A stretch of DNA of 64,000 bases from a bacterium (GTDB taxonomy: Bacteria; Armatimonadota; JACIXR01): positions 1 to 64,000 of the forward strand of contig JACIXR010000001.1 in assembly GCA_014360495.1 (NCBI GenBank), in the 5' to 3' direction. A model generated the notes under the pieces. The model was not told the origin of the DNA. It saw only the letters and a program-made list of their open reading frames with translations, and did not search any database. Below are positions 35,076 to 60,810 of the stretch, in pieces. The position numbers were made by a program, and so were the translations under genes. Within the stretch, counting starts at the first letter, position 1. Every line of letters starts with the position of its first letter.

Positions 35076-35150
35076 CGGGGCGTGGCGCAGTGGAAGCGCA
35101 CTGGCATGGGGGGCCAGGGGTCCCGGGTTCAAGTCCCGGCGCCCCGACCA
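35076..35150 (+). tRNA. tRNA-Pro (anticodon GGG)
   Basis: Complete cloverleaf with encoded CCA. The acceptor CGGGGCG pairs with CGCCCCG. D arm GCGC-AGTGGAA-GCGC, anticodon arm CTGGC-ATGGGGG-GCCAG with anticodon GGG, T arm CCGGG-TTCAAGT-CCCGG. It reads proline codons CCC and CCU. Confidence 0.95.
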
Positions 35151-35175
35151 TCTATATATAAGGAGGCGATAAAAT

Positions 35176-36420
35176 ATGTCCAGTTCACTTCCCTCTGGCT
35201 TGATGGTTTTTCTTTTAATCCTCTTATTAGCCTCTTTAATGGGGAACGCAGGTGTGGTAGACGAATTCATCATAACATATTGGTGTGGACCCCCCTTGAA
35301 GGAAACAACCCTGGAAAGATACAAAGAGATAAAAGATGCAGGTTTTAACATTGCAGCGGTTTCCATTGACGGTGCCTTTAAAAAGGAAGATAATCTGCGC
35401 CTCCTTGATATCGCTAAAGAAGTGGGATTGAAATGCGTAATTGCTGACCAACGCCTTACTTGGGACATCGCTAGCAAACCAAATTGGGAGAAAATTGTGG
35501 ACGAGGTGATTAAAGATTATTCCTCTCATCCTGCCCTCCATGGCTATTTCATAATGGATGAACCAAATGCCTCTCATTTTCCTCTACTCGCAAAAGTTGT
35601 ATCGTATATAAAGGAAAAGGACCCTAAGCATATCGCTTACATCAATCTCTTTCCCGATTACGCTACCCCAGAACAGCTCGGCACACCCACTTATAAAGAC
35701 CATGTTGACCTATTCATCCGAACTGTCAAACCCCAGCTATTATCTTATGATTATTACACCTTTCTTCAAGGTGGGGATAGGGAGACATTCTTTGAAAATC
35801 TAAGGGTTGTTAAGGAAGCAAGCGAGAAGGCAAGGATTCCTTTCATTGTAGTGATACAGATGGTAACCCATGGTCCATATAGGGATTTAACAAAAGGGGA
35901 GATAGCCTGGCAAGCCTACAATTGTTTGGCTTATGGGGCTAAGGGAATTTGCTACTTCACCTATTGGACACCTCCAGATGACCCAGTTTGGCACTGGAGA
36001 AACGGAATCATCAGCTGGGATGGAAAAAGAACCGCTCACTATGAGGAAGTTAAGGAAGTAAACAGTGAGGTTAAAGTTTTAGGCGATTTCTTAAACAAAC
36101 TTAAATCCATAGATGCTTATCATACGGGGAAGGTTCCAAGGGGAGGCAAGCCTTTGCCGGTGGGGACTCCGATAAAAAGAGTGGAAGGTGGGGATGCCAC
36201 TCTCGGCTTTTTCAAGGATAAAAACGGAACAATTTATTGCCTTGTTGTGAATATGGATTACAGGAATCCAAAGGAATTCAAGATATATACCGAAAGAAAG
36301 CCGAAATTATTCAATCTGAAAACGAGGAAATGGCGAGATAAGAGTTTAAAGAAGGAAGAAGGCATTGGATATTTTGAATTGACATTGCCTGCTGGAAGCG
36401 GTGCTTTGTTGAAATTCTGA
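35176..36420 (+). CDS. Secreted TIM-barrel glycosidase-like protein
   Basis: 414 residues with an N-terminal signal or anchor (GLMVFLLILLLASLMGNAG). Then a barrel begins DEFIITYWCGPPLKETTLERYKEIKDAGFN, a pattern seen in uncharacterised exported proteins of polysaccharide-degrading bacteria. Glu129 in YFIMDEPNASHF is the likely acid/base. The matching nucleophile is not obvious; strand residues QLLSYDYY and AKGICYFTYWTPP are typical of the fold. The C terminus is a small beta domain ending LPAGSGALLKF, as in GH42-like proteins. Family assignment is open. The start follows AAGGAGG and lies 25 nt after the tRNA with no terminator between, so the mRNA may be released by tRNA processing. Confidence 0.72.
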   Translation: MSSSLPSGLMVFLLILLLASLMGNAGVVDEFIITYWCGPPLKETTLERYKEIKDAGFNIAAVSIDGAFKKEDNLRLLDIAKEVGLKCVIADQRLTWDIASKPNWEKIVDEVIKDYSSHPALHGYFIMDEPNASHFPLLAKVVSYIKEKDPKHIAYINLFPDYATPEQLGTPTYKDHVDLFIRTVKPQLLSYDYYTFLQGGDRETFFENLRVVKEASEKARIPFIVVIQMVTHGPYRDLTKGEIAWQAYNCLAYGAKGICYFTYWTPPDDPVWHWRNGIISWDGKRTAHYEEVKEVNSEVKVLGDFLNKLKSIDAYHTGKVPRGGKPLPVGTPIKRVEGGDATLGFFKDKNGTIYCLVVNMDYRNPKEFKIYTERKPKLFNLKTRKWRDKSLKKEEGIGYFELTLPAGSGALLKF

Positions 36421-36421
36421 T

Positions 36422-37576
36422 TTACATCTCAAAGCCAACGAGCTTCATTTGGAGCTTGATGATATTGCCTCTTTTCTGCCAGGATATCCCCGGCTCCAAA
36501 CAGTGTAGCTTTTTATAAAGGGAAATAAATAGGTCATATAGTTTCCCCTCTTTTAAATCCTCAACCCAATCCATTTCAAATTTCCAGTTCCCCATATCCC
36601 TTGATAATGACAAGCGAGCGTAAGAGGGCAATTCTTCCTTATCGAAGAGAAAGGGAGTTGAGCCTCCCAAAGCTTGATAACCAAGAGAGAGGATTGTCTT
36701 ATTGCTTCTCGTTTCCCTCCCGATTGAAATTTCCCCTCCCACGCTTCTATATCTGGAATCATCGCTATAAAATGAGCAAAAGCTGTTGAGCGAGATTTTC
36801 AAAGAAGTATTTTCACTCAAGGACTTCTCTAAAACTGGTTGGGAGAGAGAAAGGCGGAGACGAGTAGCGTGCTTATTTGTTGGCTCTTCAGAGAATCTTC
36901 CAAAAGAATAAGAAAAGCCTTTCCTTTGAAAGAGTAGATGTGGGCTCTCGCTGATGAAGATTGGGGAAGTTCTTTTACCGGTTATCTCTTCATACCTGCT
37001 GAGATTTAAATATATGGAAGGTGTAAGGGGAATAGAAGCTTTCCCCGACAATCCCATCTTTTGCAAATAACCAATCTTTACTTTAGTGGTATCTTCTCTG
37101 AAGGGTAGGGAAAATGTTGTGCTCAATGATAAGCCTGTTGTTTTGCTGTAGCTTATGCGGGGCAGCTCTAATGCTCCCTCTTCTAATCTATCTTTTGGGT
37201 TTAAGGAGAAGCGTAGGGTTGGGAGGGAGAAAATTTTTGTATCGCCGAGGAGGAGGGATGCGCCCTTTACGGTGACTTTTCTTTTCGTTCCCACGATAGG
37301 GTAGGACAAGTATTTTGCGGAAATTCTGTAATGAGGATGAGGTAGCTCACAGGTTGTGAGATAGGCGTTCTGCATTATTATTTTATTTTTCTCAATTGAA
37401 AGATTTGAGGCGGAGAAGAAGATTCCTTGATATTCAACATGAGCGTTTTTAATAGAACCAACTTGAGCTTCCCAAAGAAGCTCAAGTTGGTCTCCCTCTA
37501 AGATGAGATTATTTTGAGGATTTGGGAAAGATAACGCAGTTAAGAAGATAATCCCCCATAAGGCAACGAGACGCAT
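36422..37576 (-). CDS. LptD/OstA-like outer-membrane barrel protein (short)
   Basis: 384 residues with a signal peptide. The early part resembles the OstA-type repeat of LPS-assembly proteins (VEYQGIFFSASNLSIEKNKIIMQNAYLTTCE), followed by YRISAKYLSYPIVGTKRKVTVKGASLLLGDTKIFSLPTLRF, the typical bridge into the LptD barrel. Then come alternating beta strands with frequent aromatic ends. True LptD is usually 700-900 residues and has four conserved Cys; this copy is about half that and has few Cys, so it may be a minimal or partial LptD. No ribosome site precedes the ATG. It lies 17 nt after a small secreted-protein gene. Confidence 0.6.
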   Translation of the reverse strand: MRLVALWGIIFLTALSFPNPQNNLILEGDQLELLWEAQVGSIKNAHVEYQGIFFSASNLSIEKNKIIMQNAYLTTCELPHPHYRISAKYLSYPIVGTKRKVTVKGASLLLGDTKIFSLPTLRFSLNPKDRLEEGALELPRISYSKTTGLSLSTTFSLPFREDTTKVKIGYLQKMGLSGKASIPLTPSIYLNLSRYEEITGKRTSPIFISESPHLLFQRKGFSYSFGRFSEEPTNKHATRLRLSLSQPVLEKSLSENTSLKISLNSFCSFYSDDSRYRSVGGEISIGRETRSNKTILSLGYQALGGSTPFLFDKEELPSYARLSLSRDMGNWKFEMDWVEDLKEGKLYDLFISLYKKLHCLEPGISWQKRGNIIKLQMKLVGFEM

Positions 37577-50770: not shown

Positions 50771-50793
50771 GGGGGCGTCCGAAGGACGCCCCC
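50771..50793 (+). terminator. Terminator of the alpha-fucosidase gene
   Basis: GGGGGCGTCC pairs with GGACGCCCCC around GAA (10 bp), followed by a C/T-rich run ending TTTT. It lies 26 nt past the stop. Confidence 0.85.
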
Positions 50794-50856
50794 CTCTCTT
50801 TTACAATCTCTTGAAAATTTCTTTGAAATTGCCAAAATTTATCTTGGTGAAGAGAA

Positions 50857-53800
50857 ATGAAAGAGGAACGACCCTCGTTCTCCCTTCCCGATTTGATTGA
50901 CAATCGCAAGGTCACTGGCAAGACTTTAGCGGATGTCCTGAAAACGCTCCTCTTGGAAAGCAATCAGCCTAAATTATCCATTGCTACGGCTTTCTTCAAC
51001 TTAGATGCCCTACGCTCCCTTGAGGAAACCGTCCTCAATCTATCCTCCCTCCGACTCCTATTGGGGAAAGAACAGGAGCAAAAATTCGTTTTGAAAGGAT
51101 TTCGGGAGGACCTTGAAACCGCTGTCTCCCAATCCCTTTCAGTCTCCATTTCAGAAATCCAAGATTGGCTTGATTTTCTCAAAGACGACCTCGTCCAAGT
51201 TCGCCTCTACGAGAAATCTTTCCTTCATGGCAAGGCTTACCTCCTGGAGGGCGTTCCCTTCCTCGGAAACATAGGGATAGTGGGCTCCTCTAACTTCACA
51301 GGGGCGGGATTGAAAACCAATTTAGAGTTGAACGCAGTCTTGAAGCAGGAGAGCGCGGTGAACGAGCTTAAGAGATGGTTTGAAGCCCTCTGGGAGGAAA
51401 GCGTTGATTATAAATCCGAGTTTCTCTCCATCCTGAGCGATTTCACTCACCATTATACCCCTTACGAGATTTACATAAAGATTCTCTACGAAGCTTGGAA
51501 AGACCGCTTTGAAACGAGCCCCTCGGAAAAGGATGGCAAACCCTCGCCAATTGCCCTCACGGATTTCCAGCATCAAGGCTATCTTGCCGCGAAGGAGATT
51601 TTGGAGAATTATGGCGGTGTCATGATTGCTGATTCCGTTGGGCTCGGCAAAACCTATCTCGCCCTTCGCCTCCTTGACGATTACGCCTACCACGAGCGTC
51701 AAACAGCCCTCATCATCTGCCCCGCTTCTCTCATAGATAGCCTCTGGCGTCCACTTCTCCAGAGATACGCTATCCCTTACGAACTCATATCTATGGAGAA
51801 GGTAAGCCAAGCGGATTTCCCCTTCGCCGAGTATGCTGAGAAATTCAAGATTATAGTCGTGGATGAAAGCCACAATTTCCGCAATTCCCAAACCAATCGC
51901 TGGAAAAATCTTTTCCAGCTCATATCAAGGGGAGACAACGATAAAAAAATAATCCTCCTAACCGCTACCCCAATCAACAACAGCGTCTTTGACCTCTACA
52001 ACCAAATTCGCTTTATCACAAGGGATTTTCGGGATTTCTTCAAATCTGTTGGGATTAAAGACCTTTTCCGCTATTTCTGTAAGGCGGATGGTGATAAAGA
52101 TACCCTCTATGAAGTGCTTGAGGCGATAGCTGTGCGGAGAAGCAGGCAGTTCATTCGCTCAAATTATCCCCGAGCATTGATTGATGGTAAGCCAATCCAT
52201 TTTCCCGAAAGGGAGCTCCATTCAGTCCATTACAGCCTCTCCGCGATTTACGGCAAAGACCTCTATAATAGACTCGCTTATGCGATAGAGAATCTCTTCT
52301 TCGCCCCCTATCAACCAGATTATTTCCGAAAGGATTTCATTGAAGCGATGAAGAGATGGAGTAAAAGGGAGGAATATCGCTATTGGGAATCTTTGAAGAG
52401 GCGATTAATGGAACTCGGCTGGGATGAAGACAAAGCGGAGGATTTCGCGAAAACTTATGGGAGGCAGAGGGCTCTCGTTCAGATTATGCGCATCTTATAT
52501 CTCAAAAGATTGGAGTCATCCGTGGAGGCGATGCGGAATTCTCTAATTTATCAAAGGGATTTCCAGAAGGCTTTCCTCCAAGCCCTCAGGGAGGGAAGGC
52601 TTTTGGATAGCAAATCCTATCGCAGATGGCTCCAGGAGCTATCAGCCGATGATGAGGGAGAGGAGGGAAAGGATATAAGGGAAATCTTGGACAGCTTGCC
52701 CCTTCTCTCCAGTAAGGACTACGATATTCAAGCCTTGGAGCAAGCTGTGGAATCGGATATCCAAAGCCTTGATGAGCTCATTGGAGATTTGGAGAAACTG
52801 CGGGCGGAAAGGGACGATAAATTGGAGACCCTGCGAAATCTCTTGTTGAACGAGGTGAAGGGGAAGAAGGCGATAATCTTTTCCTATTTCAAGGATACAG
52901 CTCGCTATATTTATAATCAGTTGAGGAACGATGAGGATTTTATGCGGGGGATGGGGCTAACAGCCGAGCAATTCTCAATAATTGATAGCGGAGTAAAGCC
53001 GGAGGAAAGATTGGACCGCATCCGTAGATTTGCCCCCGAGGCAAACGAATTTAAGGACAAGACAACACCGGATAGGGAGATAAACCTCCTCATAAGCACG
53101 GATGTCCTGAGCGAGGGGCAGAATCTGCAAGACGCTTGCGTCCTCATCAACTACGACCTCCATTGGAATCCCGTTAGGATGGTTCAGAGGGCGGGGAGGT
53201 TGGACCGCATCGGTTCGCCCCACGATTTAATTCACATCTACAATTTCTTCCCCGAAGATGAGCTTGAAAGCCTTCTTCATCTTCTCCAAAGGCTTTATGA
53301 GAAGCTGGAGGCGATAAATCGCGCCGTTGGCTTGGATGTTTCCGTCCTTGGGGAAATGCCCAATCCTATGGATTTCAATACCCTGAGAAGGATTGAGGAG
53401 GGGGATGGCAGTGTAATGGATGAGTTGGAATCTGAAAGCGAGCTGAATATAGGGGAATTTCTTATGGAGGACCTGCTGAATTTCCTCAAAAGAATAGGGG
53501 AAAGGAAACTGAGCGGGATACCCAATGGTGTGGGGACGAGCAAGAAAGGGGAAAGGAGGGGGTTTTTCCTTTCCCTGAAGAATTTAAACACGGATAAACA
53601 TTACTGGCTGTTTGAGGATGAGAATGGGAAATTGATAGGACTGGAGGGAGATAGGCTTGAGGCGATAAAGATGATTCGCTCCAAGCCTGATGAGCCAGCC
53701 CTCCCCATCCCTCCCGATTTTGACCCTCGGACAAAGATAGAGGAATTGAGGGAGAAGCTGTTGGAAATCCTTCGCCAGTCCGCTTATCATAAGTCTCCCC

Positions 53801-54084
53801 TGAAATCCCCCCAAAACAAGGTTGTCAGTTGGCTCAGAACCCTTCCTCCCTCATCTATGAGGAACGAGTTGTTAAGTTATTTCTCCCAGCCTCTGAGCGA
53901 GCTTGCCCTGAGGGAACTGCGAAGGATTTGGCGTGAGAGGACGAGGAAGAACGAGCAGGAATTTATGAGGGAATTGGAGGATTTTAGCAAACGATATCCC
54001 CAAGTTAAGGGGAGTGAAACGAAAGAGCAACGGGAGATAAATAAGGAGGATTTAGAGGTCATCGGTTGGGTATTGTTGCAATGA
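50857..54084 (+). CDS. PLD-nuclease-like / SNF2-family helicase fusion (defence-type)
   Basis: 1075 residues, cytoplasmic. The N terminus (about 1-220) is a phospholipase-D-like domain with FLHGKAYLLE (His124, Lys126, Glu at the usual Asp place) and GIVGSSNFTGAGLKTNLELN: one HKD half, as in PLD nucleases that work as dimers. Then a superfamily-2 SNF2/HepA helicase: GVMIADSVGLGKTYL (Lys265), VVDESHNFRN (Asp336-Glu337), LLTATPINNS, KGKKAIIFSYFKDTARYIY, LISTDVLSEGQNLQ, MVQRAGRLDRIGS. A long insertion between the lobes and a C-terminal tail are family-specific. Such proteins occur next to DNA methyltransferases in restriction-like defence loci; here the next gene is one. The nuclease role of the PLD domain is inference. 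Confidence 0.88.
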   Translation: MKEERPSFSLPDLIDNRKVTGKTLADVLKTLLLESNQPKLSIATAFFNLDALRSLEETVLNLSSLRLLLGKEQEQKFVLKGFREDLETAVSQSLSVSISEIQDWLDFLKDDLVQVRLYEKSFLHGKAYLLEGVPFLGNIGIVGSSNFTGAGLKTNLELNAVLKQESAVNELKRWFEALWEESVDYKSEFLSILSDFTHHYTPYEIYIKILYEAWKDRFETSPSEKDGKPSPIALTDFQHQGYLAAKEILENYGGVMIADSVGLGKTYLALRLLDDYAYHERQTALIICPASLIDSLWRPLLQRYAIPYELISMEKVSQADFPFAEYAEKFKIIVVDESHNFRNSQTNRWKNLFQLISRGDNDKKIILLTATPINNSVFDLYNQIRFITRDFRDFFKSVGIKDLFRYFCKADGDKDTLYEVLEAIAVRRSRQFIRSNYPRALIDGKPIHFPERELHSVHYSLSAIYGKDLYNRLAYAIENLFFAPYQPDYFRKDFIEAMKRWSKREEYRYWESLKRRLMELGWDEDKAEDFAKTYGRQRALVQIMRILYLKRLESSVEAMRNSLIYQRDFQKAFLQALREGRLLDSKSYRRWLQELSADDEGEEGKDIREILDSLPLLSSKDYDIQALEQAVESDIQSLDELIGDLEKLRAERDDKLETLRNLLLNEVKGKKAIIFSYFKDTARYIYNQLRNDEDFMRGMGLTAEQFSIIDSGVKPEERLDRIRRFAPEANEFKDKTTPDREINLLISTDVLSEGQNLQDACVLINYDLHWNPVRMVQRAGRLDRIGSPHDLIHIYNFFPEDELESLLHLLQRLYEKLEAINRAVGLDVSVLGEMPNPMDFNTLRRIEEGDGSVMDELESESELNIGEFLMEDLLNFLKRIGERKLSGIPNGVGTSKKGERRGFFLSLKNLNTDKHYWLFEDENGKLIGLEGDRLEAIKMIRSKPDEPALPIPPDFDPRTKIEELREKLLEILRQSAYHKSPLKSPQNKVVSWLRTLPPSSMRNELLSYFSQPLSELALRELRRIWRERTRKNEQEFMRELEDFSKRYPQVKGSETKEQREINKEDLEVIGWVLLQ

Positions 54085-54131
54085 TTCCCCGCTTTTTGCG
54101 AACCGTGATGGCGAAGCCGATTTCCTTCATC

Positions 54132-54159
54132 TTGCGAACTCACACTTTTATGCTAAAAT
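54132..54159 (+). promoter_or_regulatory. Possible internal promoter before the methyltransferase gene
   Basis: TTGCGA (54132-54137), 16-nt spacer, TAAAAT (54154-54159), 15 nt before the ATG at 54175. It would allow the methyltransferase to be made independently of the helicase. Confidence 0.5.
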
Positions 54160-54174
54160 AAAAGGTGATTGGCG

Positions 54175-57100
54175 ATGAGTAACGGAGAACTAATGGAAAT
54201 AAAGCAAAAGCTTGAAAAATGCGAGAATATTCCCTCACTCTACGAATTCTTCTCTTTCCTTGGCTATCCCGTTCTTCGGTCACTTGAGCGCGCCCCGGAA
54301 TTCTCCGAACTTCCTACTGGCGCCCAGCAGCTCATCCATTCCGCCCACCTCATCTCCGATATAGATATAAACCAAATCTTCCGCATCTACCACATTGAGC
54401 TCAATCAAGATAAAATAAGAAGAACGGATATACGCAGAATCCTTGAGCCCTTCTATAGAAAATATTCCCACATTTATGCCCTTTTCGTCTTCTCTACGCC
54501 CAAAACTCCCTATTCGGAGCTTGCCTTCGTCTCCCCGGACTTCATTCCACTCAGAACGCGCGAGGGAAAAGATGGAATTCGCCTCCGTCTCCGCACCCTT
54601 TCCCTAAACCCCAAATCTCCCTACCGCACTGAGCTGGAAATCCTCAATGGGATTCGTCCCCATGGCGTCCTTGACCCCAATGAAATTTGGGAAAAACACA
54701 AGCAAGCCTTCAGCGTTCAGAGGGTAACCAAGCAGTTTTATGAGGGCTATAAACAAGTTTTTAACGAGCTCTTCACTCTCCTCAAAAGCCAACAGGGAGA
54801 TTCCACCTGGGCACACTCCTTCTCCCATCAGCTCCTCAATCGTATTATGTTCTTGTATTTCATTCAAAGGAAGGGCTGGCTGATGGGGGAGAACGGCGAG
54901 CCCGCAAAGGATTTCATTCGCCAATTCTGGAACGCCTACAAGCAATCCAATCAACCTCCAAATACCTTCTACTCCAAATGGCTCTTCTACCTCTTCTTCT
55001 ACGCCTTCAATAAGCACTCGCAGGCAAGATACGAATATCCGAAATGGCTCCCCAGTTGGATAGTAAAATCCTTCTCCGAAGCTCCCTATCTCAACGGCGG
55101 TCTCTATTCGGAAAACGAGTTAGATAGACAGCTTCAGGCAACCATTCCCGATGAATTCTTCGTGCACCTCTTTGATAGAACCAAAGACAATGACGGCAAA
55201 GATGATGAGAACACGCCTGGCTTCTTTGAACGCTACAATTTCACCATCGTTGAGAGCGGGCGCTTTGATGAGGAAGTCGCGGTTGACCCCGAAGTGATAG
55301 GGAAGGTATACGAGAGCCTTGTGAATATAGAGGAAAGGGGAGAAGAGGAAAAGGAGATAGATAAGCGGGGAATGGCTGGTATCTTCTATACTCCAAGGGT
55401 GGAGATTGACCTTATGTGTAGATTGAGCCTCGTTGATTACTTAACTAATCACTTGGGGGAGGGGTATCGCCAGCTTTTGAACGAGCTCGTCTTCTCCTAT
55501 GAGGAAAGTGATAAGAACGATATTGACGGAAAAGTGGGAAAAGCGGGTTTGTGGAATCGTTTAGACCGCCTTCTAAGGGAGGTCAAAGTCTGCGACCCCG
55601 CCTGTGGCTCCGGCTCCTTCCTTGTGGGAATGCTCCTCGTCCTTGACGACCTCCAGGAAAGGGCAAATAGGTATTTGGGAAGAGAGGAAACCCCTTATGA
55701 GCGAAGGAAGAGGATAATTCGCGACCAGCTCTATGGCGTTGATGTTATGGAATGGGCTGTCCATATCGCCGAGCTCAGGCTCTGGCTTCAGCTCGTCGTT
55801 GAGACGGAACTACCAGAAAAGGCACTGCTTAGCAGTCCGCTCCTCCCTAACCTCTCCTTCAAGCTTCGTTCAGGCGATAGCTTGATTCAGGAGGTGGCGG
55901 GAATTAACCTCTCCCATTACCGCGAATATCTTGATATACCCTCAAAATTGAGGGATAGATTGAGGGAACTTGAGGAGAAGAAGAGGGGATACTACGAGGG
56001 AGAGCAGTGGCTAAACGAGGGTGAATTAAAGGCTGAGGAGAGAGAAATTTTCCTCGGCATCTTGGCGCATAAGAAAAACGAGCTTTTCAAGAGGAGAAGC
56101 GAGCTAAAATTAAAGATTTCCGCTCCGCCACAATCGGCGCTTCCCGGCTATGGAGAGCCAAGATATCCAAAGGAGAGGGAGAGCTGGCAAAGGGAGCTGC
56201 GGGAGGTAGAGAGGGAATTGAAAGAAGTGGATAAGGTAATACAGGAGCTTAAAAGAGAGGGGAAGACGCCTTTCCTCTGGAATATCGCCTTCCCGGAGAT
56301 ATTCAGCAAGGATAAGGGGGGATTTGATATCGTGATAGGCAATCCTCCCTATGTGAGGCGGGAGAAGATAGCACCTCCTCTTATGCGGGAGGAGGATTTT
56401 CCTCCTCGGGTTTGGGAGAGATTGAAGAAGGAATATAGGGAGAAATTGCAGGAATCGGTGGCTATGATTTGGCGGGATTTCTTCCGAAATAATCGCAGGC
56501 TTCAGGGGAAAAACGACCTCTATGTTTATTTTTATTTCCACGCCCTCAGCCTCCTAAATAAGAAGGGTTCTTTCTGCTTCATCACCTCCAACTCATGGCT
56601 TGATGTTTGGTTCGGGAAGGATTTGCAGGAATTCCTTCTCAGATATGGGCATCCGAAGATGATAATTGATAATAGGGCGAGGAGAAGTTTTGAGCAGGCG
56701 GATATCAATACCGTGATAGTTCTCTTGGCTCCGCCGAGCAAGGAAGAGGTGGATGATGAGGAGAAGGAGAGGAGATTCGTTCGCTTCGTAACATTCAAGG
56801 TTCCCTTTGAGGAAATTCTCCATCCCGTTATATTTGAGGAGATATGGGATGATGGAGAATATGAGAGGCGAGTGGATGTTGATATATTGGAGAGACGGGA
56901 ATACAGGGCGATAAGAAGGGATGCTTACTCATTGTTGGTGGAGGGAATGGAGGAGAGCAAGATAGGTAAGGGGGTATATAGAGGGAACAAGTGGGGAGGG
57001 ATATATCTGAGGGCGCCCGTGATATTTTTCAAGATAATGGAGAAGGGAGCGGGGAAGCTCGTCAAGCTCGGGGAGATAGCGAAGGTTGAGACGTATTTAA

Positions 57101-58002
57101 ATACGGAGGCCGATGGATTTTTCCTCGTTAGGAAAGTCGGTGGCGATGAGTATATTTGTGTGATTCAAAATACATCAGAGGAGGGGCAGGGTAGAACATT
57201 TGAGATAGAAGCGAGATTCGTTAAGCCTTTGATCAAATCTCCTAACGAGCTTAGGCGAATTATTGTTTCAGCGAGTCAAACTCAATGGCTGCTTATCGTG
57301 TTCCCAGAAAAGGAGGAATTATTAACGGAAAGGGCTAAGGAATATATTAGATGGGGCGAAAGGATGGGATTTAGTCAAAGACCAGGTTGTCGGAAGCGTA
57401 GACCTTGGTGGAAGCTTCCACGACAGGCACATCGTCCCGGTAGAATAATGTGGAGTAGACTTCACCATGACCGCCACCTTGTTTTTTACAATCCGGAAGA
57501 GGTAGCTTATACCAATTTTTATGCAATATGGCCCACTGGTATGGACGAAAAGGTATTTACTGCTTTATTGAACGCAACATATTTAGTGCTCTTCAGGGAA
57601 TTGGTAGGCAGAACGCCATGCGGAGGCGGTGTTCTAAAAACCGATGGTGTTGACATACACCGAATCCCTGTCATCAAACCGTCGCTCGTTCCACCATCCC
57701 AACGGGCTCGGTTGATTTGCGCTTTTGAGAGATTGGCGCAGAGGGAAGTGGGGAGTATTTTTGAGGAGCTGGGATTCGTGATTTGCAGAGAAAGGAGATG
57801 CCGAAATCCCGAGCATCCCTTTGAATTCGTGAATTCAGCGGAGCTGACCCTTGAGCAAGTGAGGAGAGCTTCTCCCGACCGCTTTGAGCTTGATAGCGTC
57901 GTCTTTGATATCCTTGGGCTCACGGATGAGGAGCGATTGGAGGTTTATCGAGCGGTTGCCGACCTCGTCAAATCCCGCCTCACAAAAGCAAGGAGCGTGT
58001 GA
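54175..58002 (+). CDS. Eco57I-type N6-adenine DNA methyltransferase (type IIG-like)
   Basis: About 1275 residues. The N-terminal 370 residues include [22 protein letters not shown], a hallmark of Eco57I/type IIG proteins. Next [19 protein letters not shown] motif [17 protein letters not shown] (Asp474), [18 protein letters not shown], and catalytic motif [15 protein letters not shown] (Asn723-Tyr726) with a long helical insertion between. The last 300 residues are the probable target-recognition part. I see no clear PD-(D/E)xK nuclease at the N terminus, so cleavage may be supplied by the neighbouring PLD-helicase. ATG 54175 has AAGGTG 7 nt upstream; the TTG at 54169 overlaps this spacing. 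It lies 90 nt after the helicase gene and 10 nt before a J-domain gene. Confidence 0.92.
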
Positions 58003-58012
58003 AAGTAAAAAT

Positions 58013-58867
58013 ATGAAATATAGTTCAGACCCTCTGCGAAATGTGAATGAGAGAAGCGACAGCGGTTGCTTAGGGTGTTTGATAAGTTATTTCGGACTTT
58101 ATTTAATCCTGTGCATTATAGCATGTATAGTAGCTTTGTTCAGCTGGTTGGTTGAGAATTTTGGGGTTGGAGGAGTCTTGATATTTGCAATATTTCTCAT
58201 AGCCTTTGTTTGGCTTATCCTTTGGGCGCGAGAGACAGCCGAAGAGAGCAGGGCTCGCAAAACCGCTCATAAAATATACGAAGATATGAGAGCAAACGCG
58301 CGCTCCGCTTCTGCAATATCTACTTCTCCAGAAAAGCGTTATTATCAGATTCTTGGTCTTAGCCCTGGAGCTTCTCCAGAGGAAGTTAAAGAAGCCTTTA
58401 GAAAATTGGCGAAACACTACCACCCTGACCTCGCCCAAACACCCGAGGAAAGAACACAGAGGGAGGAACAGTTTAAAAAAATAAACGAAGCTTATGAATA
58501 TTTAAAAAGAAGGCCTATTAGCGAAAGCGAGAGAAGTTTTCCGCAGGATGAACCCCTTTTAGAAATGATATTTATTATATGTTTGGGTAGCCGACTATCC
58601 GATGTGGTCTATATCCGGCGAATGAGTGTTAGAATTCTTTCCGAAATTTGGTTAATCCCCGAACTTGAAAGGAAAATGAACTCAAGGATTCAACCCTGGT
58701 GGTCTACTTATATTTATTCAGTAGATTGTCTAATATCGGCTTTAAGCGATAAGGATAAAAGTGTCAGGAAAGCGGCACTAAAGTCGCTAAAGAATTTGAC
58801 AGGCTATAATTTCGGACAAAATCCATCACTTTGGAGAGTTTGGTACAACCAAAAATTAAGAGTTTAA
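58013..58867 (+). CDS. Membrane-anchored J-domain protein with HEAT-like C terminus
   Basis: 284 residues. Two adjacent membrane segments ([27 protein letters not shown] and [19 protein letters not shown]) are followed by a J-domain: [57 protein letters not shown], with the HPD triad at 137-139 needed to stimulate a DnaK ATPase. There are no zinc or G/F regions, so it is a class C J-protein. The C terminus ([25 protein letters not shown]) looks like a HEAT repeat. It starts 10 nt after the methyltransferase stop, with a poor ribosome site. Sequence from here to 59425 looks more A+T-rich than the neighbours. Confidence 0.85.
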
Positions 58868-58888
58868 AAAGATTTGGAGGTGTAAGGA

Positions 58889-59425
58889 TTGTTTAGTTCA
58901 TCGGATATGGATTGTCTTTTTAAGGAATATACAGATTTAAAGAACAGAGAAACAAAGCTCAAATTAGCTATAGGCTTATTATCCCTTCTACTTCTTGGCA
59001 CTATTGGTGTATTTTCTTCATGTTTAGTAGTTGAAAGAAGAATAGTTCACCAGAAGGAAGCGGAAATAAGACGGCTTTCAGCCTTGGAGAGCAAAGTGGA
59101 GGAAATCCAAGGCGAAAAGGAAAAGGCAAGTTCAGAGGCAAGGGATTTGCTGACCGAGGGCAAAGAGGTAGTAGATGATTTAATCCGTTTTTCTAAAATG
59201 CAGGGAGATCTTATTCAAATGCAGGAAAATCTCGTTATTAAACTCTATAAGCTTTCCAATCCTTCATATTGGTTAAATACGGAGCCATCCCAGATCAATT
59301 CCGAAATAGACCAGATTAAATCGATAGAATCGCAAATCTATACTGAAAGAAAAAAGATAAACTCTGCAGTAAATAAGATAAATGAGAAACTCAAAAAATG
59401 GTATGGAGAATTAAAGAACTTTTAG
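58889..59425 (+). CDS. Membrane-anchored coiled-coil protein of unknown function
   Basis: 178 residues. A short N-terminal part is followed by one membrane helix (LKLAIGLLSLLLLGTIGVFSSCLVV), then a mostly helical, charged tail with heptad character (VERRIVHQKEAEIRRLSALESKVEEIQGEKEKASSEARDLL; QIKSIESQIYTERKKINSAVNKINEKLKKW). No catalytic motif. Start is TTG 58889, 8 nt after GGAGG. It lies 21 nt after the J-domain gene and is probably cotranscribed with it. No known family is recognised. Confidence 0.75.
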   Translation: MFSSSDMDCLFKEYTDLKNRETKLKLAIGLLSLLLLGTIGVFSSCLVVERRIVHQKEAEIRRLSALESKVEEIQGEKEKASSEARDLLTEGKEVVDDLIRFSKMQGDLIQMQENLVIKLYKLSNPSYWLNTEPSQINSEIDQIKSIESQIYTERKKINSAVNKINEKLKKWYGELKNF

Positions 59426-59573
59426 CGACAAACAAGAAAAAAGGGATAGCTGCCCTTCTATAATTTCCCCACTTATGTCCCAGCTCAGCAGAAAGTTTGG
59501 CATCCTTTGAAGTCTCAATCATCGGGGGAGAGTGCTTTTCTTTGTTTCATCTTAACTAAATAAAATTTTTTGC

Positions 59574-60619: not shown

Positions 60620-60778
60620 TGTTGCGAGGCTTCCCTTTGGGAAGCCTCGCAATGACATCCTCCCTTTGTCATTGCGAGCGGTAGCGAAGCAATCTCGCTT
60701 TTAGTTTTTCATGAGATTGCCATGGGCTCCCTTTGTGAGCCCTCGCAATGACAGGAGGGCGGAGATTGCCACGGGCTT
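60620..60778. repeat. Cluster of interspersed palindromes between convergent genes
   Basis: Four elements in a row: 60620-60657 (GAGGCTTCCC-TTT-GGGAAGCCTC, flanked by GTTGC and GCAATGACA), 60667-60698 (GTCATTGCGAG, GCGGTAGCGAAG, CAATCTC), 60713-60753 (GAGATTGCCATG, GGGCTCC-CTTTGT-GAGCCC, TCGCAATGACA) and a truncated 60761-60778. They fill the space between the UROD-like and lepA genes and probably act as 3' hairpins for both. Confidence 0.8.
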
Positions 60779-60810
60779 ATTTATGGGAGGCTTAGGATGA
60801 GATGGTTTTT

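Follow-up and report, generated by a model that had tools for sequence, protein, structure and literature searches.

The question raised by positions 50857..59425 of the window (the whole 64,000-nucleotide stretch of an Armatimonadota genome analysed here) is whether four consecutive forward-strand genes form a single defence system, as the original prediction had proposed, or whether the system comprises only some of them. The first gene, HEL (50857..54084, 1075 amino acids, aa), encodes a fusion of a PLD (HKD) nuclease with an SNF2 ATPase and is the predicted restriction (translocase-nuclease) subunit. The second, MT (54175..58002, 1275 aa), encodes an Eco57I-type N6-adenine DNA methyltransferase with a fused target-recognition domain, as assigned from Pfam, the PADLOC model REase_MTase_IIG, and motifs. 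They are followed by J (58013..58867, 284 aa), a membrane protein with a J domain and a weakly HEAT-like C-terminus, and CC (58889..59425, 178 aa), a membrane-anchored coiled-coil orphan, both of which probably lie outside the module. We consider it likely that an ATP-dependent restriction-modification-type module is made up here of two subunits, HEL and MT, and that J and CC are lineage-specific neighbours, not components. The restriction-type module of the original prediction was retained, and the four-gene chaperone-linked system was not.

The pairing of HEL and MT was conserved well beyond this genome. Contigs from one genome per species were scanned with two conserved SNF2 peptides as seeds and the best 80 matches were kept; because of these seeds, the scan was unselected for MT. 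HEL was present in 79 loci, and a relative of MT was found within 5 kb on the same strand in 60 of them, or in 30 of the 32 (94%) that retained at least 5 kb on both sides. Relatives of MT in related loci were called at E values up to 1e-4, and some of them were low-scoring. Both gene orders were observed (MT-HEL in 41 related loci and HEL-MT in 35), and HEL relatives were found in many bacterial phyla and in archaea from phylum searches and the one-genome-per-species contigs. The closest full pair was found in a Planctomycetota locus, L146 (54% for HEL and 47% for MT). The accessory genes beside the pair differed among loci and included AAA/OLD-like ATPases, GmrSD_N, DUF3800, Mrr_N, and an m5C methylase. 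No description of the pair as a named system of its own was found in the open-access literature, subscription papers and REBASE being outside the search. We conclude that HEL-MT is a genuine restriction-type module of two genes that occurs widely; its mechanism is of a known kind, and its arrangement is unnamed in the papers searched.

Both parts of HEL were intact. Pfam matches were obtained for PLDc_2 (5.8e-13), SNF2 (2.9e-15), and Helicase_C (8e-19), and the best PADLOC model was C3a139 'HKD+Snf2', which matched residues 22-880 at 1.4e-86; the DrmD and HmaA profiles of PADLOC matched the SNF2 part far behind it. The PLD domain (50962..51393, forward strand, residues 36-179, from Pfam and alignment) carries HxKx4E at H124, K126, and E131, GSSN at 143-146, and E157, and its HKD-like motif reads HGKAYLLE...GSSN. 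The SNF2 motor (51544..53346, forward strand, approximately residues 230-830) carries VGLGK (261-265), DESHNF (336-341), LTATPIN, and QRAGRLDR, and its nearest solved structure by sequence was RapA. In an alignment of 15 HEL homologues, H124, K126, S144, N146, E157, and the SNF2 motifs were invariant. The HKD-like nuclease half originally noted in the helicase was thus borne out by the PLDc_2 match and by invariant HxKx4E/GSSN residues.

MT matched Pfam Eco57I at 9.9e-33 and M_Eco57I_C weakly. On the forward strand, the S-adenosylmethionine (SAM)-binding motif I, DPACGSG, lies at 55594..55614 (residues 474-480), the catalytic motif NPPY at 56341..56352 (residues 723-726), and the target-recognition domain at 57058..57999 (residues 962-1275). 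In three relatives (G005, G199, and G184) this last domain is a gene of its own, as in a Type I-like M/S split. Adenine methyltransferase motifs and a target-recognition domain are therefore present in a nuclease-encoding locus and conserved as a pair, as in restriction-modification systems. The N-terminal domain (54175..54714, forward strand, approximately residues 1-180) was modelled by AlphaFold 2 (AF2) with a predicted local distance difference test (pLDDT) score of 85, and no conserved PD-(D/E)xK residues were found in these first 180 residues by motif inspection. With the 462-aa N-terminal model as query, Foldseek found nothing significant in the Protein Data Bank (PDB); as DpnI and a Holliday-junction resolvase appeared at E values of only ~1, the model gives a hint at most of an inactive restriction endonuclease-like fold. 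The earlier description of MT, with SAM and NPPY motifs and no visible nuclease, agrees with these results.

The two proteins may differ in ancestry. The MT of G032 showed 51% identity over the core and its HEL only ~25%, and judging from these comparisons, the MT core and HEL of one locus can derive from different lineages. On the Lactococcus plasmid pJM1F (L233, 1737-10230), a pair of PLD-SNF2 helicase and N-6 methylase genes adjoins a DNA invertase gene and a TaqI-like specificity gene in inverted orientation, an arrangement that looks like a phase-variable specificity switch.

The N-terminal domain of MT was also found in other proteins encoded beside HEL. A profile built from MT N-terminal domains only was run against 1349 proteins of related loci, with shuffled proteins as a control, among which there were zero matches. 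It matched Mrr_N proteins encoded 8-25 nucleotides (nt) from HEL in four loci (E values of 2e-11 to 4e-8), cyanobacterial proteins of 470 and 519 aa at 0-16 nt from HEL (5e-10 and 2e-10), a 512-aa protein 12 nt from HEL (L186, 3e-6), and a cut-off open reading frame (ORF) of 60 aa (6e-5), which probably represents the first part of a truncated MT. The reverse profile recovered MTs at 8e-9 and weaker. Since the domain also occurs in non-MT proteins 0-25 nt from HEL homologues, it is a candidate docking domain for HEL, and the simplest reading of the shared domain and the adjacency is that it would bring different DNA-reading modules to the same nuclease-motor. If so, methyltransferases and other DNA readers (an Mrr_N winged helix or an MzaA-like module) could be interchangeable partners of one nuclease-motor, which would account for specificity exchange among HEL loci.

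In one family, HEL was followed by an Mrr_N protein with an N-terminal half like the MT N-terminal domain at L055:5360-6394, L056:7478-8548, L058:7287-8324, and L061:7408-8469, with Pfam Mrr_N at the C-terminus of these proteins. In L056 and L061, HEL adjoins the Mrr_N protein with no MT beside it, which suggests a methyltransferase-free form of the HEL module in this family. The cyanobacterial proteins (L232:6432-7988 and L157:2746-4155) combine the MT N-terminal domain with another C-terminal region, and one of them is annotated as a sigma-70 factor; the C-terminal part of the L232 protein matched PADLOC MzaA (1.4e-46).

From the conserved pairing, the intact motifs in both proteins, the MT without a conserved nuclease motif, and the N-terminal domain shared with other HEL-adjacent proteins of DNA-binding type, we infer site recognition, methylation, translocation, docking, and cleavage by HEL-MT. 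With its C-terminal target-recognition domain, MT would recognise a site that is asymmetric or bipartite, and it would methylate adenine there, so that host DNA would be marked. At an unmethylated site, MT would hold the DNA and present it to HEL through its N-terminal domain, and the SNF2 motor of HEL would hydrolyse ATP and move along the DNA. The PLD nuclease, expected to need two copies per active site, would cut when two complexes meet or stall. The original prediction had likewise assigned cleavage to the PLD-helicase of a restriction-type system; with conserved pairing and intact catalytic motifs in its favour, the PLD domain of HEL is most likely the cleaving part of the module on sequence grounds.

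Several points weigh against this reading. Some HEL homologues have no adjoining MT, as in G186, where MT sits elsewhere in the genome, and HEL may therefore work with other partners too. The locus is flanked by fucosidase, HemE-like, LepA, and HemW genes and then by housekeeping genes, with no defence island. The docking role is deduced from domain sharing and adjacency, and J and CC lie 10 and 21 nt behind MT and its successor with no terminator. The literature searched holds no experiment showing defence, methylation, or cleavage by the HEL-MT family.

Among the alternatives, MT could serve chiefly in epigenetic regulation or as a solitary methyltransferase, and HEL could be an enzyme apart from it, type IV-like or active in nucleic-acid repair, the two genes being adjacent through joint transfer. 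The HEL genes that adjoin an Mrr_N protein and no MT fit such a separation, as would a promoter of MT's own. MT starts at an ATG at 54175 (alternative start TTG at 54169), and a promoter-like site with a TG-extended -10 element precedes it (54132..54159, forward strand), from which MT may be transcribed separately; a second promoter-like site precedes HEL (50811..50838, forward strand), and promoter matches overall were at chance level. However, the 94% pairing in fully flanked loci extends over distant phyla and both gene orders, and the HEL-adjacent Mrr_N proteins themselves carry the N-terminal domain of MT. We regard independent enzymes as unlikely.

The original prediction proposed a four-gene system in which the two membrane proteins, one of them able to recruit DnaK, could contribute an effector step under membrane or chaperone control. 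In the version weighed here, J would recruit DnaK at the membrane and CC would tether the complex, so that restriction would gain such a step. The four same-strand ORFs and the gaps of 90 (HEL-MT), 10 (MT-J), and 21 nt (J-CC) were reproduced exactly, and no terminator lies between MT, J, and CC; given this spacing and the missing terminator, co-transcription of J and CC with MT is plausible. J has a Pfam DnaJ match (1.6e-18), a weak HEAT match, an HPD motif, and a two-helix membrane-like stretch, and its single-sequence AF2 model was confident only over the J domain and the membrane-helix stretch. CC has one N-terminal hydrophobic stretch and no Pfam family match. Its TTG start is preceded by a GGAGG ribosome-binding site, and its 178 codons run free of stops at 36% G+C; it is therefore very unlikely to be a chance ORF (~1e-6 by our own estimate).

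Against membership, J and CC were found behind HEL-MT in 0 of 118 related loci, which together span 1.68 Mb and include 44 from the unselected scan in which the pair is present and 1.5 kb or more of sequence follows it; there were no CC matches and no J matches beyond the J domain, and generic J domains were found in three of these loci, each more than 5 kb from HEL. Full-length relatives of J were not found in 291 genomes of the phylum, phages, plasmids, or viral contigs, where only the J domain was matched, and CC matched nothing outside its own genome in the 291 genomes, plasmids, and viral contigs. As the two genes were found nowhere else, no case of J or CC without the pair was encountered. 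Their composition also dropped sharply, with G+C of 40.5% for J and 35.6% for CC versus 48% for HEL and MT, and G+C at third codon positions (GC3) of 37% and 36% versus 55-57%. Thus, J and CC are probably lineage-specific neighbours outside the module, perhaps on the same transcript, and the four-gene system appears quite unlikely; such a chaperone-controlled system is not claimable from spacing alone. A narrower version, in which the pair gained in this lineage a membrane-bound DnaK-recruiting regulator (J) and a tether (CC) such that a chaperone system controls restriction or shut-off at the membrane, is improbable as well; here a lineage-specific add-on has the spacing as its evidence, and the neighbouring accessory genes differ from locus to locus.

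A chaperone of another kind was found beside HEL in three loci of different phyla, where genes for an Hsp70-TPR protein (~800 aa) and a UvrD-like helicase (~410 aa) adjoin it (L073:4333-7979, L167:11459-15189, and L199:16112-18897), and this could be read in favour of a chaperone link. Among the other phylum genomes read, the same cassette occurs without HEL in G084, G225, G033, G064, G063, and G083, and the Hsp70 gene without an adjoining UvrD-like gene in three more. As the cassette mostly stands alone, it was rejected as a general chaperone partner of the HEL family. Hsp70-like domains have been listed among McrBC-associated domains (PMC11090510).

A DUF499-centred BREX-related (BR Type-2/Hma) system, or a reduced DISARM or BREX, was weighed against the two-subunit module. 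BR Type-2 uses an HKD-Swi2/Snf2 helicase and an N6-methyltransferase (PMC12839542), and the SNF2 part of HEL scores against the profiles of DrmD and HmaA. Nevertheless, C3a139 was far ahead of both profiles, and DUF499 (PF04465), the ATPase core of BR Type-2 (PMC12839542), is absent from the whole 97%-complete genome, and 31 large neighbours on the same strand in related loci gave no strong match to it; DUF3780 was outside the search. DISARM class 1 (DrmD, DrmMI, DrmA, DrmB, and DrmC; PMC9142583) resembles the locus in its N6-methyltransferase, SNF2 helicase, and PLD nuclease, but the DrmA/DrmB core is missing here and the PLD nuclease is fused to the SNF2 helicase. The locus lacks DrmA and DrmB (DUF1998/MZB), the one MZB protein of the genome being on contig C2, and it likewise lacks BREX PglZ and BrxC. 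As these defining genes are absent, HEL-MT is not DISARM, BREX, or Hma/BR; a derivative of these systems is very doubtful, and the pair did not turn out to be a named DISARM-type variant, with the PADLOC 'HKD+Snf2' model matching the helicase only. On contig C2, a BrxC-like ATPase gene and a PglZ gene lie together behind a MutS2-like gene (G000:C2, ~233812-239578; L258:812-6578), and represent a reduced BREX-like pair; the surrounding ORFs that were read include neither a methyltransferase nor a helicase gene.

That HEL-MT is a decayed or inactive remnant, as its single copy outside a defence island and the lack of HEL (1e-30) or MT (1e-40) matches in the same-genus genomes G001 and G002 might suggest, is scarcely credible with both ORFs of full length and all catalytic motifs intact.

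The surroundings of the module were also inspected. A strong two-way terminator-like hairpin (50771..50793) lies between the fucosidase gene and the module, and a weak one (59441..59457, forward strand) lies 3' of CC, both being consensus matches only. In G001, used for an empty-site comparison, the two flanks sit on separate contigs, so that an insertion boundary could not be placed cleanly. Between the UroD-like and LepA genes (60622-60780) lies a short repeat of ~30-110 nt with ~28 further copies in the genome and no match in G001 or G002. Elsewhere in the window (35076-37576), a tRNA-Pro gene (35076-35150) is followed after 26 nt by a 414-aa ORF of low G+C (42%) and then by a convergent 384-aa ORF, neither of which has a Pfam family.

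The two-subunit module was compared with the restriction enzymes it resembles. HKD-SF2 fusions also belong to CxC-ABC/Pbe systems (PMC10853773), and PADLOC C3a139 is a model of the protein alone, a two-gene system with a methyltransferase not being described in the papers searched. Type IIG enzymes (Eco57I and MmeI families) share with MT the order of methyltransferase, helical spacer, and target-recognition domain, and PADLOC IIG models match it. However, a single chain with both nuclease and methyltransferase was not recognised here, as the N-terminal domain of MT has neither conserved PD-(D/E)xK residues nor a confident fold match, and cleavage is expected from the partner. Type ISP enzymes (LlaGI and LlaBIII) likewise combine a motor, an adenine methyltransferase, and a target-recognition domain, but in a single chain with an Mrr-type PD-(D/E)xK nuclease, whereas two proteins and a PLD nuclease are found here. 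CglI and NgoAVII perform ATP-dependent restriction with a PLD nuclease, a superfamily 2 (SF2) ATPase, and a cognate methyltransferase (PMC4267653). Their PLD and ATPase are separate, a B3 domain reads DNA, and the methyltransferase is of the m5C type (PMC4267653); here, a PLD-ATPase fusion is paired with a predicted Eco57I-type m6A enzyme bearing a target-recognition domain. SauUSI is a biochemically proven PLD-SF2 restriction enzyme that couples ATP-driven translocation to cutting with an HxKx4E active site (PMC7913695), and, as in HEL, its PLD nuclease lies N-terminal to the SF2 ATPase; in HEL itself, the HxKx4E/GSxN motif and the motifs of the SF2 ATPase to which the nuclease is fused are all intact. 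SauUSI (Type IV, PLD-SF2-SRA) reads methylcytosine by its own SRA-like domain without a methyltransferase partner (PMC7913695), whereas HEL is of the SNF2 class and is paired with a methyltransferase carrying a target-recognition domain. Annotation splits this pair into a 'helicase' and a 'type IIG' enzyme, although it is common across bacterial phyla and archaea.

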